From Glycomyces algeriensis (GTDB lineage Bacteria; Actinomycetota; Actinomycetes; Mycobacteriales; Micromonosporaceae), in contig NZ_JAPZVR010000003.1 in the NCBI RefSeq assembly GCF_027622855.1, positions 335,148-399,147 on the forward strand: a stretch of DNA of 64,000 nt, given 5' to 3'. The position numbers and the translations under genes are program-made. This document shows, piece by piece, positions 3,984 through 48,881 of this stretch. The stretch's first letter is position 1; every line of letters begins with the position of its first letter. The notes beneath the pieces were generated by a model. That model did not search any database, was not told the origin of the DNA, and saw nothing but the letters and a program-made list of their open reading frames with translations.

Positions 3984-6900
3984 ATGGCCTGGATGGAAAT
4001 CCCCAAGAGCCGCAGGCGAATGCTCATCGGCGGAGCCGGCGTGTTCGCCGGGGCCGCCGCCGCGACCGCACTCGACCCTTTCACCGCAGCCCAAGCCCAG
4101 CAGATGAGTGTCAGCGTGTTCGCGACGACGGGCGCCGCCCAGGCCGCCGAAGCATGGAATCCCGATTCGTCGTATACGACGACGGACAAAGGCGACGGCT
4201 CCTACACGGTTCCCATGCTGAACTCCGACGTGCCGGATGTCAGTGTCGAGCGCGTCCCCGCGTCGCAGAACGGCGAAGGGCGCGACATCTACTACATGGT
4301 CAGCACGACGATGCATCTCAGCCCGGGCGCGCCGATCATGAAGTCGTACGACCTCGTCAACTGGGAGATCGTGAACTACGCGTTCGACCGCCTCGACATC
4401 AGTGACGCCGCGTCCTTGCGGAACGCCTCGAACTCCTACGGCCAGGGGCAGTGGGCGTCGTCGATCCGCTTCCACGAAGGCACCTTCTACGTGCTCATCA
4501 ATTCGCTCAACCTCGGCGGCGCCTTCCTCTACCGCACCGACGACATCGAGAACGGAGCGTGGACGAAGACGGCGTTCGGTCGAGGGTTCCACGACCCGTC
4601 GCTCTTCTTCGACGACGCCAACGGCGGAACGCCGTACATCTTCTATGGTGGCGGCGGCGCCAGCGTGGTTCGACTGAACTCGACGCTGACGGCGGTCGAG
4701 CAGGACTATCCGGACGTCATCCGGCGCAGCGACTACGCGGACAAGCCGTACATCGGCACCGATACGATCTTCGAGGGCGCCCAGGTGTCCTTCATCGACG
4801 GTTACTACTACGTCGTGATGATCACCTGGCCCGGCGACGGTCGGCAGGTCGTCATGTTCCGCTCGACCGAACTGCTCGGGCGTCTCGCGGACACCGCTGC
4901 GCCCTACGAGTCCTATGGAGCGCTCAACTCGAACGGATTCGCCCAGGGCAGCCTCGTGCCCATCGCGAACGACGCGGGCGACGACGACTGGTACGGCTTC
5001 TTCTTCCGCGACTCGTATCCGGTCGGTCGCATTCCGGCGCTGATCCCGGCGACCTGGAGCGACGGGTGGCCGACCTTCGGCGACAACGGCGTCGTGCCGG
5101 TCGACGGCGTCTTCGAGAAGCCGATCATGCTCACCCCCGAGCAGGAGCGCTTCGAGCGGCTCAAGAGCGTCGTCGTGTCCGACGACTTCGACAACGATGC
5201 ACCGCACCGTCCCTACCAGGACGAGCAGTGGACGCTGCCGACACCGCCCGACATCGACGAGACGCTGGTCGGAGTCGAACTCTTCGGCAATCCCGGCGTC
5301 GAGTCGGGGAACACCGAGGGCTGGATCGCCAACGACGGCGCGACGCTCTCGGCGACGACGGACGCGCACGCCGGCTCGACGGCTCTCGCGGTCACCGGGA
5401 GGAGCACCACGGGATCGGGGCCGGCGCAGGACGTCACCGGCAAGGTGCAGCACAGCGTCACGTACGACGTCTCGGCATGGGTCAAGTACGACAACCCTGC
5501 GAGCCCGGCGACCAAGCAGTTCCTCATCACTGCCCGGTACGGCGGCGGCAGCACGACCTACACGAACCTCACCCCCGCTACGGCCGTGACCCGCGGGAGC
5601 TGGGGCAAGGTGTCCGGGTCGTTCACGATTCCTGCGACGCAGGCCCTCTCCGATGTCCGCATCTTCATCGAGACGCCCTGGGTGAGCGATCCGTCGACAG
5701 ACCCTGACACGCACCTCATGGACTACAAGGTCGACGACGTGTCACTCGTCGGACGGCGCTCCGTCGTCGAGCTGCCGCATCCCGATGAGATCGCCCCGAA
5801 CGGATCGAACCTCGACCTGGCCTGGGAGTGGAACCACACGCCCGACAACCGGTACTGGTCGCTCACCGACCGCGAGGGGTGGTTGCGGTTGACGGCCGGC
5901 AAGGTCGTGACCGGTGCGTACACGCACCGCGACTCCGGTGGCGAGCTCACCTGGCTCGAGGAAGCGCGCAACACGCTCTCGCAGCGCTCCTTCGGACCTC
6001 GGCAGTCGGCCGAGACGAAGCTCGACTTCTCAGCCATGAACGACGGCGACGTCGCCGGTCTCGCGGCGTTCGGCCAGGACTTCTCGTACATCGCGGTCCA
6101 GCGCGTGAACGGGGTGAACACGGTGGGAGTCGTCCATCGCGGCCGGCCCTTCCCTGCCCCGGTCGACCAGGCGGCGGTCGAGCGTTTCCTGCCCGGAGCC
6201 ACTGCGGAACTCGGGGACGCCACGGAGGTGCACCTCAAGGCGGACCTTGACTTCACCCGGAACGAGGGGCAGCTCTTCACCACCTTCTATTACAGTCTGG
6301 ACGGGATCGATTGGACCCGGCTCGGCAACGCCGTCGGACCGCTCGAGTTCGGCGGAACGATCCACTTCATGGGGCACCGGGTCGCACTGTTCAACTACGC
6401 GACCCAGCAGACCGGCGGCCACGCCGACTTCGACCACTTCCTGCTGAGCGACACTCTCACCTCGCAGAACCAGCCGCTCGACAAAGGCGATCTGGAAGCA
6501 GCGATCGCCTACGCCGAATCGCTGGACTCGGGCGACTATCCCGCCGAAGCGTGGGCGGCGATGCTCACCGCGCTCGCCGAAGCGCGAACAGTGGCAACAG
6601 GTGCGGTCGGCACGCAGAACCAGATCGACGCCCCCGAGCGAGCGCTCAGCTATCAGCTCGCTCACCTCGGAACGCTGAAAACACTGAAGGGGCCGGACCC
6701 CACCGCCTGGTATGTGCTGGTGAATCGCGGCAGTGGCAAGGTCCTGGACGTCAGCGGTGTTTCCACCGCCGACGGCGCCCAGCTGCATCAGTGGAGCCGT
6801 ACGAACGCGGCCAACCAGCAATTCCAGTTCGTGGACGCCGGCGGCGGCTACTACCGGATCAAAGCCCGCCACTCGGGCAAGGTCCTCGACGTGTCCAGCT

Positions 6901-43684: not shown

Positions 43685-44197
43685 TCATTCCGCTGCTCGA
43701 TGCTGGGTGCACCAGTGCCGCATGGCCTCAGTGCTCACGGCCACGAGCACGCACAGGTGCAGAACGATCCCAAGGAGGCCATGGACCACGCCCAGGACCG
43801 GGACCTCCGGGACGGCGGTGAACGGGCTAACGACCACATACGCGCAGAAAATGATCGCCCCGGCCTCGACGGCCATCACTCCTCTTCGCGCCCAGCCCTT
43901 CCCCCACCGAAGCTGCACTGCGAGCACGACATGGAGGACCGTGAGCGCGCCGAGCACGGCACAGTACGCCGCTTCGCGGGTGACCTGAGCCGTCGGGACT
44001 CCCGCGGCGGCGAGGTCGAAGAGCAGGAAGAGCGCGGAGATGAAGAATCCGGTGCAGAGCGCGGTGCCGATGAGCCACATCGCGGCGGTGGTGAGGTTCC
44101 CCTCGGGCGGCATCGGCGAAGACGCGGGTTCGTTCGTCTCCACGGCTGCGGACTCCTCGGCGAGACCGGGGTCGCCGGGGGGTGTGGGTTCGGACAT
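43685..44197 (-). CDS. Small four-helix membrane protein
   Basis: This 170-residue protein has an acidic, Pro-rich N-terminal tail and about four membrane helices (LTTAAMWLIGTALCTGFFIS, EAAYCAVLGALTVLHVVLAV, RRGVMAVEAGAIIFCAYVVV, VHGLLGIVLHLCVLVAVST). GAGGAG precedes the ATG. No known domain is visible. Confidence 0.65.
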   Translation of the reverse strand: MSEPTPPGDPGLAEESAAVETNEPASSPMPPEGNLTTAAMWLIGTALCTGFFISALFLLFDLAAAGVPTAQVTREAAYCAVLGALTVLHVVLAVQLRWGKGWARRGVMAVEAGAIIFCAYVVVSPFTAVPEVPVLGVVHGLLGIVLHLCVLVAVSTEAMRHWCTQHRAAE

Positions 44198-44288: not shown

Positions 44289-44459
44289 GGCTGCGGCGGC
44301 GCTGCATCCGGACGCAACGTCGTCGAGCGGTGTTTCAACCGACTCAAGCAGCGGCGGTAGATGCCCGCCCGTCACGCGAGACGGGCGGCCATCTACCGCG
44401 CGAGCTTGGTCATCGCCGCGAGCATGATCTGGCTCAACGATTCACAGGACAAGCCCTAG
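44289..44459 (+). pseudogene. C-terminal remnant of an IS5-family transposase
   Basis: The frame reads SGRNVVERCFNRLKQRR, a stop codon, then ARRAAIYRASLVIAASMIWL, the typical end of IS5-family DDE transposases including the conserved Glu of VERCFNRLK. The N-terminal two thirds and the inverted repeats are missing, and the internal stop kills what remains. Confidence 0.8.
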
Positions 44460-44872
44460 CACGCGCCGCCCCAATGTTGGCTGCCCAGCTTGAGGGAGCT
44501 GCTGCCCGTGGTGATTTTTTGCCACGCGCCTGAATCGACCGGAGGGGCTCCGCGGTGGTAGGTGATGCAGTAGCTGCCGACTTTGACGTCGTTCCTGTAC
44601 GTCGAGAAGTAGTAATGGTCGGCGTAGGCTTCGAAGTTGCCGTTGTTCACGACGTAGAACGTGCTGTTCTTGGGCAGAACAAAGTTAGGGAGCAGGCCAG
44701 GCGTACCGTACTGGAAATTCGCGTCGGCCAGCGACCCTCTGTAGAGGCACACATATCCGGACTTGCATTTCTCCAGGTCGTCTCCGGCGGACGCGGGGGA
44801 CGCAGGGAAGACGACCAGACCGACGAAGACGGCAGCCACGGCGGCCAGAGCGGTGAGGCGTTTCTTGAGCAT
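44456..44872 (-). CDS. Small secreted protein, peptidase-inhibitor I36-like
   Basis: The ATG at 44872 follows GAGAGG and gives 138 residues. The Sec signal LTALAAVAAVFVGLVVFPASPASA is followed by KCKSGYVCLYRGSLADANFQ, the short Cys-x5-Cys start seen in I36-like and beta/gamma-crystallin-like exported actinobacterial proteins. Further Cys lie in GSYCITYH and at the C-terminus (HWGGAC). The gene faces a SARP regulator across a 460-base gap that holds a SARP-type heptamer array, so it is a likely target. Confidence 0.72.
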   Translation of the reverse strand: MLKKRLTALAAVAAVFVGLVVFPASPASAGDDLEKCKSGYVCLYRGSLADANFQYGTPGLLPNFVLPKNSTFYVVNNGNFEAYADHYYFSTYRNDVKVGSYCITYHRGAPPVDSGAWQKITTGSSSLKLGSQHWGGAC

Positions 44873-44984
44873 CACGTTCCTCTCAGTTCGAGGGTTTCTA
44901 CGCTTGCGGTGCATGGAATCTCCAGTTCGTGTCCGATGCTGATGTCGCCGAAGCCGGCGATCTGCACCAACCATGTCGCCCGGA

Positions 44985-45013
44985 TGCACGGAACCTGCAC
45001 GGATCGTGCACGG
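44985..45013. promoter_or_regulatory. Three TGCACGG heptamers at 11-bp spacing: candidate SARP binding site
   Basis: TGCACGG is found at 44985, 44996 and 45007, separated by exactly four bases each time. SARP regulators are known to bind direct heptamer repeats with 11-bp periodicity. The array is in the shared control region of the SARP gene and the I36-like gene, about 110 bases from the latter's start. No strong -10 hexamer is visible at the usual 8-bp distance on either side. Confidence 0.7.
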
Positions 45014-45332
45014 CCTTCTTTCAGCGGCAACAGCGCACGTGGGGACGTCCGGTCGTGCGAAGAGCGCCGGGACTGGTAGCCGTCGATCTGACTCAGGTTC
45101 GCAAAGGGCGGCTGGTCAGACGATCAGCTCGGGCATGGTGAACAGCGATGCTTCCGCGCCCGCTAGAGCGATGACCGAACCGGCTGTCAAGTCGTTGTCG
45201 GTTATGAGTCAGCATCCGTTGGCTGAGATCGAAGGCGAAGCAACCTGAGGCTGCGGGTGCGCGGACTGTGGATGGAAGCGGTTCTCGATACCCTGGAGTC
45301 TCTTGAGCAGCAGTACTTCTGGAGGTAATCCC

Positions 45333-48095
45333 GTGGAATTTCGGATCCTGGGTCCGCTCGAAGTACTGCATGACGACGTAGCGGTGCCTGTGCGAAGCCC
45401 GCTGCAATGCAGGGCGCTGGCGGTGCTGCTTCTCGACGCTGAGTCGCCTGTGCCGATGCATCGGATGATCGCGGCCATGTGGGACGACGAACCTCCGACC
45501 ACTGCGCGTCGTCAGGTGCAGAACACCATCGCGGCACTGCGACGACTGCTCGCGGCGGCAGACCCGATCGAGCATGCAGGTGATGGCTACCGGCTCCGCC
45601 AGCACCGATCCGACCTGGCAGCGTTCACCACCGAAGTCGCACAGGCGAAACGCGAAAGCGATCCGGCTGCGACGGAACGGCTGCTCGCTGCCGCATTGCG
45701 CCGCTGGCGCGGGCCGGTCCTCGGCGGGCACGGCGGCAACCTGATCAAGTCCATAAGCGCCGGACTCGAGGAACGCCGGCTGGACGCGCTCGAAGCGCGG
45801 TTCGCGGCGCTACTTGAACTCGGCCGTCATGGCGAGTCGGTCGATGAGCTTCGCACGGCCGTCGTATCCCATCCCGACCGTCAACGTCTCACGGGTCAGC
45901 TCATGCTCGCTTTGTACCGCTGCGGTGACCGGGCAGCGGCGTTGCGGGCCTTTGAAACGCTGCGGGGCCGGCTCGCTGAGGAGCTCGGCATCGACCCCGA
46001 CCGGACGGTGCGCGATCTGCACACCGCGATCCTCCGTGAAGATCCCGCGCTCACACTCGCCCCCGACCCCGTCCCGTCGTCGATGCGGCATGACGCGTCA
46101 AGCGCGCCATCGCTGCTTCCTGGCGCGATACCTGGCTTCACCGGCCGGGAGAGCGAACTCGACCGCCTCAGTGCACTCGTCGACGACGGTGCACGCCTGG
46201 CGATCGTGGCCGGGTCCGGCGGGGTCGGCAAGACCACGCTGGCGCTCCACTGGGCGAGGGCGATCGCCCACCGGTTCCCTGACGGGCAGCTGTACGCCGA
46301 CCTTCACGGCTTCGACCCCGCCGGAACCGCGGACCGCCCAGAAAGCGTGATCCGCCGTTTCCTCGAAGCGCTCGGCATCCCCGCCGAACGCATCCCTGAC
46401 GCATGCGACGCCCGAACCGACCTCTACCGCAGCACACTCGCCAATCGGCAAGTCCTGGTCATTCTCGACAACGCCAAGGACGCGGCGCAAGTGCGCCCGC
46501 TCCTGCCCGGCGGCACCGGCACATTCACGCTCGCCACGAGCCGCAACCGCATGACGGGCCTGATCACCACCGAGGGAGCCGACCTCGTACAGGTCGAAGC
46601 GCTCGATCGTCAGCAGGCGAAGGAGATACTGGAACGACGACTCGGCGCGCGACGGGTCAACGCCGAACCCATTGCAGTCGAGTCGATCATCGACATGTGC
46701 GGGGGACTGCCACTGGCCCTGGCAGTCCTCGCCACCCGCGCGGCGGTCCAATCGGAGTTCCCGCTCGCGCATTTCGTCGAACAGCTGCGCGGTGTCGAGA
46801 GCGGCTTGAGTGCGTTCGCCGAAGACGATCCGCTCACGGACGTCACGACGGTCTTCTCATGGTCGATCGGCGCCCTCAGCGACGAGGCCGCAAGGCTGTT
46901 CCGACTGCTCGGGCTTCACCCGGGCCCGTACTGCACGCCTGCTGCGGCTGCCAGCCTCGCAGGGCGTCCGCTCAGCGCTGTTCGCGCGCTGTTCGCGGAA
47001 CTACACGGTGCGAGCTTGATCAGCGAGCCGCTTCCCAACGAATTCCACATCCACGACCTGCTGCGCGCATATGCAAGAGAGCTCGCCGCCGAAGCTCCTG
47101 CCGTATCGGCGGAAGCGACCGCGCGGTTGATCGACCACTACCTCTATCACGGTTGCACCGCAGCAGAACTGATCGCGCCGCGACCACGCGTTCCCGTCGC
47201 CGGTGATCCACGGCCAGGCGTGCACTGCCAGCCGATCGCCGACCGCTCCGCCGCGCTCGCATGGTTCGCCGCCGAGTACCCGGTGCTGCTCAACCTCATC
47301 GACCAGACCACCGACCCCGAAACCGCCTGGAACCTCGCATGGGTCCCGGTCACATGGCTCAACGACCTCGGACGGCGCAGCGAGATCATCCGTACTCAGA
47401 TCGCCGCGCTCGCCGCGGCTGAACAGCTCTCCGACGTCACGAAGCAGCTCTACTCGCACCGGATCATCGCCAACCAGTCGATCTTCACCGACAACGCGCA
47501 CGTCTCCGAGAAGCACCTGCAGCGAGCGCTGCAGCTCTGCGAAGCTGCCGATGTCCTCGACCGGGGGTTCGTACACCACCACTTCGCACTGTTCCTCGCC
47601 ACCGTCAAAGACGACGCTTCGAGAGCACTGGCATACGAACGTACCGCGTTCACGGCATTCCAGGAGGCCGGCAGCGAATTCGGGCAGGCTGAGGCGCTCA
47701 GCTCCATCGGACGGCTCCTGGCTCACCTCGGCGTGCCCGGACGCCTCGACGAAGCGCTCACCAGTTGCCAAGAGGCCCTTGCACTCCTGGAGAAGCTCGA
47801 CAACCTGTGCGCTCAGATCCCGGTCTGGGACAACATCGCGTTCATCCACCACCGGTCCGGACGCACCGCCGAAGCGTTCGCCTCCTTCGGCAAGGCCATT
47901 GCGATCGCCCGCTCTCTGAACGCCGTCATGAACGAAGCCGAGACCTCAGTGGGCCTCGGGCGCGTCCACGCCGAACTCGGTCAGGCCGCCGAAGCGAGAG
48001 CCGCCTGGGAGCGGGCCATCGAAATCCTGGAGCCCAGCGAGCCCTTCAGCGCAGCCAGAATCCGGTCGATGATCAACGGACTCTCCCACCCGTAA
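45333..48095 (+). CDS. AfsR/SARP family regulator with NB-ARC and TPR domains
   Basis: I chose the GTG at 45333 because TGGAGG lies seven bases upstream; the protein has 920 residues. Residues 1-95 are the OmpR-like DNA-binding domain (FRILGPLEVLHDD, TARRQVQNTIAALRRLL), about 100-240 the BTAD domain (AFTTEVAQAKRES, LMLALYRCGDRAAALRAFE). The NB-ARC ATPase follows, with Walker A GSGGVGKTTLA near 290, a Walker B-like QVLVILDNAKD and GLPLALAV. TPR helices occupy about 680-920. It is AfsR-like in layout and size. Activation of secreted or secondary-metabolite genes is the family role; no cluster is adjacent. Confidence 0.93.
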   Translation: MEFRILGPLEVLHDDVAVPVRSPLQCRALAVLLLDAESPVPMHRMIAAMWDDEPPTTARRQVQNTIAALRRLLAAADPIEHAGDGYRLRQHRSDLAAFTTEVAQAKRESDPAATERLLAAALRRWRGPVLGGHGGNLIKSISAGLEERRLDALEARFAALLELGRHGESVDELRTAVVSHPDRQRLTGQLMLALYRCGDRAAALRAFETLRGRLAEELGIDPDRTVRDLHTAILREDPALTLAPDPVPSSMRHDASSAPSLLPGAIPGFTGRESELDRLSALVDDGARLAIVAGSGGVGKTTLALHWARAIAHRFPDGQLYADLHGFDPAGTADRPESVIRRFLEALGIPAERIPDACDARTDLYRSTLANRQVLVILDNAKDAAQVRPLLPGGTGTFTLATSRNRMTGLITTEGADLVQVEALDRQQAKEILERRLGARRVNAEPIAVESIIDMCGGLPLALAVLATRAAVQSEFPLAHFVEQLRGVESGLSAFAEDDPLTDVTTVFSWSIGALSDEAARLFRLLGLHPGPYCTPAAAASLAGRPLSAVRALFAELHGASLISEPLPNEFHIHDLLRAYARELAAEAPAVSAEATARLIDHYLYHGCTAAELIAPRPRVPVAGDPRPGVHCQPIADRSAALAWFAAEYPVLLNLIDQTTDPETAWNLAWVPVTWLNDLGRRSEIIRTQIAALAAAEQLSDVTKQLYSHRIIANQSIFTDNAHVSEKHLQRALQLCEAADVLDRGFVHHHFALFLATVKDDASRALAYERTAFTAFQEAGSEFGQAEALSSIGRLLAHLGVPGRLDEALTSCQEALALLEKLDNLCAQIPVWDNIAFIHHRSGRTAEAFASFGKAIAIARSLNAVMNEAETSVGLGRVHAELGQAAEARAAWERAIEILEPSEPFSAARIRSMINGLSHP

Positions 48096-48144: not shown

Positions 48145-48440
48145 CTCACGAGCTCAGCACTTGCCGTCGCGGTAGGCCCGCTGAAGCCCGACGGTTGTGG
48201 AACGAGGCGGCGACCTTCTCACGCGACATCGGACTGCTCGACGACGCCGAGTACGAGCAGCGCCGAACCAGCGAGACTCCCACTTGCCCGGCGCTGTACA
48301 TGCCGACCGGAAGAAAGTGGCCAAGCGACGTAAGGTGTTTGCGCCCTCTTGTGGTCGCCGGGCGTCTCGCGTGCAAATTCCATGCCGAATTCATGCCGCG
48401 CTCGCCCATCCTTCTTGCAGATCGTCAACTAGGAGGTTCC

Positions 48441-48881
48441 ATGCGATCACTCACTCACGGCCGCAACCGGGCCCGGCTCATCGCGGTGCTCGTCGCGATT
48501 GTTGCCATGATCGGGCTCTCGGGCGCGATCGCAGCACCGGCGCAGGCCGCGACCCCTTGCGTCGCTTCAACCGGGGCGAAGGTCTGCTTCAACCCGGACG
48601 GCGAGCACCTGTACGTCTACGACACCGCCGCTGACGGCATGGCCGCGACGGCGTTCTACACCTTCAACGACTGGGACGACGACGACTGGGTCCGTGCTGA
48701 GAACAACGGCGGCGCCGGATCGGTGCTCGACTGGGACCTGTCGCTCGCCGAAAACGTCCTGATCTGTTTCGTGGCCACAGCGACCGAGCGCGACGTGATC
48801 ATCACTCAAAGCGAGTCCAGCGGGTACAGAAGCGCCGGCGACGGTTCCCACCGCGGCGAATGCCCCTTGCTCGTCTGGTAG
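48441..48881 (+). CDS. Small secreted protein, unknown function
   Basis: The ATG at 48441 has AGGAGG seven bases upstream and gives 146 residues. A Sec signal (ARLIAVLVAIVAMIGLSGAI, ending APAQA) is followed by ~105 residues with four Cys (ATPCVAST, AKVCFNP, VLICFVA, RGECPLL) and an acidic YTFNDWDDDDWVRAENNGG stretch. The Cys pattern resembles the I36-like protein at 44456 loosely. The 48145-48440 stretch shows no gene of its own. Confidence 0.7.
   Translation: MRSLTHGRNRARLIAVLVAIVAMIGLSGAIAAPAQAATPCVASTGAKVCFNPDGEHLYVYDTAADGMAATAFYTFNDWDDDDWVRAENNGGAGSVLDWDLSLAENVLICFVATATERDVIITQSESSGYRSAGDGSHRGECPLLVW

Follow-up and report, generated by a model that had tools for sequence, protein, structure and literature searches.

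Triple heptamer arrays flanking a large SARP gene of Glycomyces algeriensis are predicted promoters of small secreted-protein genes

Three exact copies of the heptamer TGCACGG follow each other at an 11-bp period (plus-strand starts 44985, 44996 and 45007) in the gap between the start of a gene for a large SARP regulator (45333) and the ATG of a divergent, minus-strand ORF for a small secreted protein (44872), raising the question of which gene this array serves and which protein binds it. SARPs are known mainly as activators of antibiotic clusters; EmbR is a SARP outside such clusters, and its targets are cell-wall arabinosyltransferases. A sequence-only reading of the window, that is, of the whole 64,000-nucleotide stretch of DNA analysed here, had taken the array to be the operator of the SARP regulator and the small secreted protein to be a direct target. 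Inspection of its polarity revealed that array 1, together with a -10-like hexamer on its far side, points toward the divergent secreted gene and away from the SARP gene. A second array of this kind precedes another secreted-protein gene on the other side of the SARP gene (Table 1). Based on the comparisons below, array 1 very probably serves the secreted gene as promoter and operator, at which the neighbouring AfsR-like SARP would bind and activate transcription, and the same applies to array 2.

Table 1 Features of the locus, with positions in the window
Feature	Sequence or content	Position	Strand	Proposed role	Basis
Small secreted protein, 138 aa	signal-peptide-like N-terminus, weakly I36-like	44456..44872	-	proposed target 1	ORF and homologues
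-10-like hexamer, 9 bp past array 1	CATGGT	44970..44975	-		hexamer A and T at that offset in 23/30 matches picked without the hexamer
Array 1	CCGTGCA-4-CCGTGCA-4-CCGTGCA	44985..45013	-	proposed SARP operator of secreted gene 44456-44872	same layout before homologous secreted genes in G012, G017 and G016
Large SARP, 920 aa	wHTH, BTAD, NB-ARC, TPR	45333..48095	+	proposed activator	Pfam
Array 2	GCGTGCA-4-CCATGCC-4-TCATGCC	48369..48397	+	proposed second operator of the same SARP	orthologous gene beside the G012 orthologous SARP also has an array (L039)
-10-like hexamer, 9 bp past array 2	CATCCT	48407..48412	+		motif search
Second small secreted protein, 146 aa	family V-x-D-x(4)-G (mostly V-[YC]-D-T-x-x-D-G)	48441..48881	+	proposed target 2	G012 orthologue 67% identical

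In order to judge how exceptional array 1 is, exact heptamer triples with a period of 8-15 were counted in the window. Three were found, namely array 1 and two poly-C registers (starts 8 and 17), compared to a mean of 0.017 in 60 first-order Markov simulations, of which one contained a single triple. The poly-C registers belong to a C run with two G near the window start (8-41), a source of false repeat matches. Because its spacers differ, array 1 is not a simple tandem duplication. A genome-wide search for TGCACGG pairs at 11-bp spacing, as the sequence-only reading had proposed, returned array 1 as the only exact TGCACGG-N4-TGCACGG in 5,593,330 bases on 34 contigs (two overlapping matches; reversed control 1). 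With two mismatches, the pair pattern matched twice in the window against 1.33 expected, which is not unusual, and the weight therefore rests on the exact triple and on comparative evidence. An ordinary sigma-70 promoter scan of 44850-45400 detected none, a weakly telling result with 0.1 expected, and between 45013 and 45333 no array match with up to two mismatches points toward the SARP gene. The distance from array 1 to the ATG of the secreted gene is 112 bp, farther than the 39-54 bp seen in three homologues.

The exact 11-bp triple of the earlier reading was thus confirmed, while array 2, the hexamer 9 bp after each array and a second target, the secreted gene after the SARP gene, had been overlooked. 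Array 2 lies 43 bp from the ATG of this second gene. Searching for two heptamers followed by the hexamer yielded two matches in the window (0.02 expected), and the exact form with the -10 matched twice in the entire 5.6-Mb genome, at arrays 1 and 2, both of which flank the SARP gene (controls 0). Likewise, the triple without the -10 and with up to one mismatch found arrays 1 and 2 in this genome (control 1). At exact match, the two flanking secreted genes are predicted to be the whole regulon of the SARP in its own genome. A third match in this genome, at C12:500048 (three heptamers and hexamer, one mismatch; control 1), was treated as chance.

To place the arrays in a wider context, we searched related genomes for the motif. 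The triple without the -10, at up to one mismatch, gave 30 matches in the 22 genomes of the genus and 13 for the reversed control, so some of the 30 are chance. Within these 30 matches, which were picked by heptamers alone and represent 28 distinct arrays (three matches being registers of one array), an N-A-N-N-N-T hexamer was present 9 bp past the array in 23, as opposed to 0-4 of 30 at the 24 other offsets. With the -10 added to the triple, 354 genomes of the family contained 34 exact matches, of which 30 fell within the 22-genome genus, and the reversed control had none; allowing one mismatch in the genus gave 54 matches compared to one in the control. A sample of 397 genomes drawn from the order contributed one match outside the family. 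The spacers show a preference too, with a full repeat of about YCRTGCMGNAT in a set that mixes in arrays picked with the hexamer. The layout fits a SARP promoter, with heptameric direct repeats at 11 bp and about 8 bp between the 3' repeat and the -10 (9 bp as framed here, 8 if the frame is shifted by one base). One array, L097 (G021:C46:5036-5100), has five heptamers at an 11-bp period and precedes a gene for an NlpC/P60 secreted hydrolase. The genome carrying it, G021, holds 15 distinct arrays on 12 contigs at up to one mismatch.

The arrays are linked to genes for signal-peptide-like proteins. Such an ORF followed 18 of the 30 exact genus arrays, compared with 6% of random positions (179 of 3000) and 18% of the gene models at these loci (107 of 599), signal peptides being called by a crude in-house rule, not SignalP; at up to one mismatch, 28 of 51 arrays preceded one. 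This comparison supports the earlier proposal that the divergent secreted gene is a likely direct target and that the output is extracellular. At least one of the 18 ORFs, at L098, encodes a membrane protein with several spans; L098 also holds an EspC-like type VII protein (PF10824, 41.9 bits), which the rule does not count. The target families comprise an I36-like group, the V-x-D-x(4)-G group, secreted peptides of 45-48 aa and the NlpC/P60 hydrolase of L097, which L231 resembles by eye. Among the targets that do not look secreted are two proteins of G008 that resemble an NAD-binding protein and a membrane protease, and a transporter of G016 (names by eye). At L105 (G008:C1), three arrays (8792, 10553 and 12840) beside one SARP gene precede genes not secreted-looking, so the regulon is not purely extracellular. 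Near-identical exact arrays occur in another genus at L243 (G372) and L242 (G025); the G372 array lies about 3 kb from a SARP gene and is followed by a 111-aa ORF in which the crude rule finds no signal peptide.

Domain searches identified the regulator between the two arrays as a large SARP. Its N-terminus aligns from residue 2 with AfsR and EmbR and shows the order of an OmpR-type wHTH followed by a BTAD (PF03704, 121.4 bits, cut-off 22.1; Trans_reg_C 19 bits, under its cut-off of 26.2), and NB-ARC (PF00931, 38.8 bits, cut-off 23.5) and TPR (TPR_2, 46.5 bits, cut-off 27) regions are present as well. Its best solved relatives are the AfsR structures 8k60 and 8jke, and with 438.8 bits against a cut-off of 1430 it does not score as an AfsR orthologue in the NCBIfam equivalog model. 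Relatives in named genomes were five distant loci with 28-37% identity, none of the same genus, in a search that may omit own or very near records. Target 1 had no match in Pfam or NCBIfam, and among three of its homologues PF03995 (cut-off 21.1) reached 19.6 bits in G012 and 18.5 bits in G009 and gave no match in G017; with homologues at best sub-threshold, the I36-like label of the earlier reading is weak. The structure model of target 1 was likewise weak (mean pLDDT 69, five sequences; best fold match E 0.12). The model of the target 2 family (mean pLDDT 82) returned no fold match at E <= 0.001, with assorted loose matches of which the best had E 0.021.

Comparing array positions with SARP genes across the genus revealed a link to one SARP subgroup. 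Of the 30 exact arrays, 12 had a listed SARP DNA-binding domain no more than 4 kb away (0.46 expected), as did 7 of 20 array clusters (0.35 expected); these counts use 150 listed of 265 SARP matches and 52 of the 54 array matches, the five-heptamer array in G021:C46 entering without two of its overlapping registers. Array-adjacent SARPs (within 4 kb, exact or one mismatch) occupied ranks 1-5, 11, 12, 15, 16 and 26 among the 150 listed by similarity to the window SARP. These are mainly its close relatives, and the comparison supports the SARP-operator architecture put forward by the sequence-only reading. For the remaining 18 of the 30 exact arrays the nearest listed SARP is over 4 kb away, so in most cases a given SARP would have to act in trans, and its assignment is tentative.

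A tree built from 86 DNA-binding domains, 84 of the genus and two of other genera, places the window SARP in a clade of nine members (clade A, support 99/94), six of which have an array, exact or with one mismatch, no more than 4 kb away. In a second clade of five members (clade B, support 100/100), four are within 4 kb of an array, one from another genus (G351). Two or more arrays were present in 8 of 9 genomes with a clade A or B SARP and in 0 of 13 others (p 2.8e-5, with the cut picked after data inspection), and at least one array in 8 of 9 versus 5 of 13. The single arrays found despite the lack of a clade A or B SARP in the tree are exact in G004 and G005 and have one mismatch in G003, G010 and G014; G020, with a clade-A SARP, lacks arrays. 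At heptamer position 7, arrays of clade A more often carry A and those of clade B more often C or G, and with 12 and 6 arrays no difference is claimed. In all six divergent SARP/array pairs compared (window, G017:C1, G012:C17, G013:C1, G008:C1 and G006:C67), the array points away from the SARP gene.

Orthologous loci indicated what the array travels with. The closest orthologue of the window SARP, in G012:C26, is 73% identical in the DNA-binding domain and 70% overall. Its own upstream gap contains no good array (the best has two mismatches, lacks the hexamer and also points away), and the surroundings examined hold no divergent I36-like gene; the second secreted gene is kept there, with an array before it (L039). 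The test set by the sequence-only reading, an array upstream of orthologous SARP genes, therefore fails literally in G012, while the link to the target stands through the array before the downstream secreted gene. The I36-like homologues in G012:C17, G017 and G016 have arrays 39-54 bp before their starts. An I36-like homologue was found in 6 of 61 genomes searched, and the four with a clade-A SARP have an array before it (0, 0, 0 and 1 mismatches of 23). In G009 and G010, which have no clade A or B SARP in the tree, the homologues lack an array (8 and 10 mismatches, random stretches having mostly 8-9); G010 has a single array with one mismatch at another site, where it precedes a different secreted gene. 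In these genomes the array thus tracks the target gene and, for the most part, the SARP clade rather than the gap upstream of the SARP gene.

The arrays fit published SARP sites in the length and spacing of the repeats, the kind of -10 and the kind of regulator; their heptamer differs from those quoted in the passages cited here. Such sites are direct repeats at 11 or 22 bp with 8 bp between the 3' repeat and the -10, as at afsS with its -10 CACTGT (PMC10936776), and three heptamers are reported for PimR, DnrI and others (PMC5930380, PMC10972967). AfsR/afsS of Streptomyces coelicolor (PDB 8hvr, 8jke, 8k60) offers the closest parallel: AfsR is a large SARP with nucleotide-binding and TPR domains that binds as a side-by-side dimer meeting sigma region 4, and the afsS promoter has 11-bp direct repeats, the upstream one overlapping the -35, a poor CANNNT -10 and the 3' repeat 8 bp from it (PMC10936776). 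Unlike afsS, with two CGTT(T/C)ATCGNN repeats (PMC10972967), the site here has three CCGTGCA, the window SARP scores far under the NCBIfam AfsR cut-off, and its predicted targets are secreted proteins flanking its gene. The operator of the SARP-LAL PimR in Streptomyces natalensis shares three heptameric direct repeats with 4-nt spacers, but its consensus is CGGCAAG, its target is pimM, a regulator gene of an antifungal cluster, and its site does not overlap the -35 (PMC5930380). EmbR of Mycobacterium (PDB 2fez) has the same SARP-type DNA-binding and BTAD parts, with a C-terminal FHA domain (PMC10936776) instead of NB-ARC/TPR.

Three other explanations were weighed. The arrays could be bound by another regulator that uses 11-bp repeats, for example an OmpR/PhoP-type response regulator, or by several different SARPs, in which case the neighbouring SARP would be the true partner of some arrays only. 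PhoP and AfsR sites do overlap at afsS (PMC10972967), more than half of the exact arrays lack a listed SARP within 4 kb, G021 carries its many arrays on 12 contigs, and array-adjacent SARPs fall into more than one clade. We nevertheless consider this rather unlikely, as both exact sites in the own genome flank one SARP gene, the array-adjacent SARPs are among the nearest relatives of the window SARP (150 listed), and the -10 spacing obeys the SARP rule. That the repeats arose by chance or are non-regulatory, such as an iteron or the relic of a tandem repeat, is barely credible: the two-mismatch pair is not rare in the window and the genus scan without the -10 gave 13 control matches against 30, but the heptamer positions are conserved, the -10 spacing is fixed, the motif with the -10 recurs genus-wide with 0 controls, and the spacers differ.

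The third explanation is autoregulation, in which array 1 would be the SARP gene's own operator in a shared divergent gap. Array 1 does lie inside the intergenic gap of the SARP gene, where a bidirectional effect is possible, and a 1-mismatch array elsewhere (L239, G021:C113) points at an ORF that is SARP-like by eye. Against this, array and -10 face away from the SARP gene as in all six divergent pairs, the gap offers no SARP-facing match even at two mismatches, and the G012 orthologue lacks a good array in its gap, while array 2 sits downstream of the SARP gene. Autoregulation is thus very improbable, and the earlier description of array 1 as the operator of the regulator is amended accordingly.

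The most likely reading is that the window SARP switches on the secreted gene on either side of it; that it binds the arrays, that its effect is activating and not repressing, that it responds to a signal, and what the secreted proteins do, are inferred. Copies of the SARP would bind the CCGTGCA repeats side by side on one helix face at the -35 position, and the bound SARP would recruit RNA polymerase to the poor -10 CATGGT, 9 bp downstream, so that the divergent gene for the small secreted protein is turned on. Acting on array 2, this SARP would also turn on the second secreted gene, downstream of its own gene, giving a local three-gene module of secreted gene, regulator and secreted gene. 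The NB-ARC and TPR parts would presumably sense a signal. On a broader scale, the layout suggests that a SARP branch controls what the cell exports rather than antibiotics. More tentatively, and with the odds somewhat against it, this branch of large NB-ARC/TPR SARPs might have turned, within this actinobacterial lineage, into a dedicated 'secretome switch' that sits among, and acts in trans on, dispersed genes for small secreted proteins, NlpC/P60 cell-wall hydrolases and EspC-like type VII substrates via a single CCGTGCAGNAT-like triple-repeat promoter code, its NLR-like part sensing an envelope or competitor cue and thereby releasing extracellular factors.

Among the titles and abstract openings listed in a literature search, with subscription journals and preprints outside its scope, none reports a CGTGCA SARP site, a SARP with a secreted regulon or a Glycomyces equivalent; in the main text of the SARP review PMC10972967 the word 'secreted' has 0 occurrences. 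An exact-match regulon made up of the secreted genes on either side, for a SARP whose relatives lie next to larger groups of secreted-protein genes, would constitute a minimal, directly testable SARP module with a readable promoter code, and a handle on the function of small secreted proteins and on the cues for the NB-ARC/TPR sensors of large SARPs.

Further observations were made around individual arrays. At L239, the 1-mismatch array (near 6782, minus strand) with its -10 precedes the SARP-like ORF mentioned above, which tblastn with the window SARP domain did not flag, and a SARP cascade is possible there. In G012, arrays are kept before apparently shortened or decayed secreted-protein genes (L096 near 8168 and L094 near 8763). 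Downstream of the I36-like gene in the window, a minus-strand gene (43685-44197) encodes a membrane protein that by eye is like small array-bearing membrane proteins in G021, G006 and G008 (L098:8338-8727, L236:6292-6693 and L231). Finally, two secreted peptides of 45 aa that carry CPPE[KW]C close to their C-terminus (L041:8409-8543, minus strand; L043:9249-9383, plus strand) are each encoded directly downstream of an I36-like gene and have their own array.
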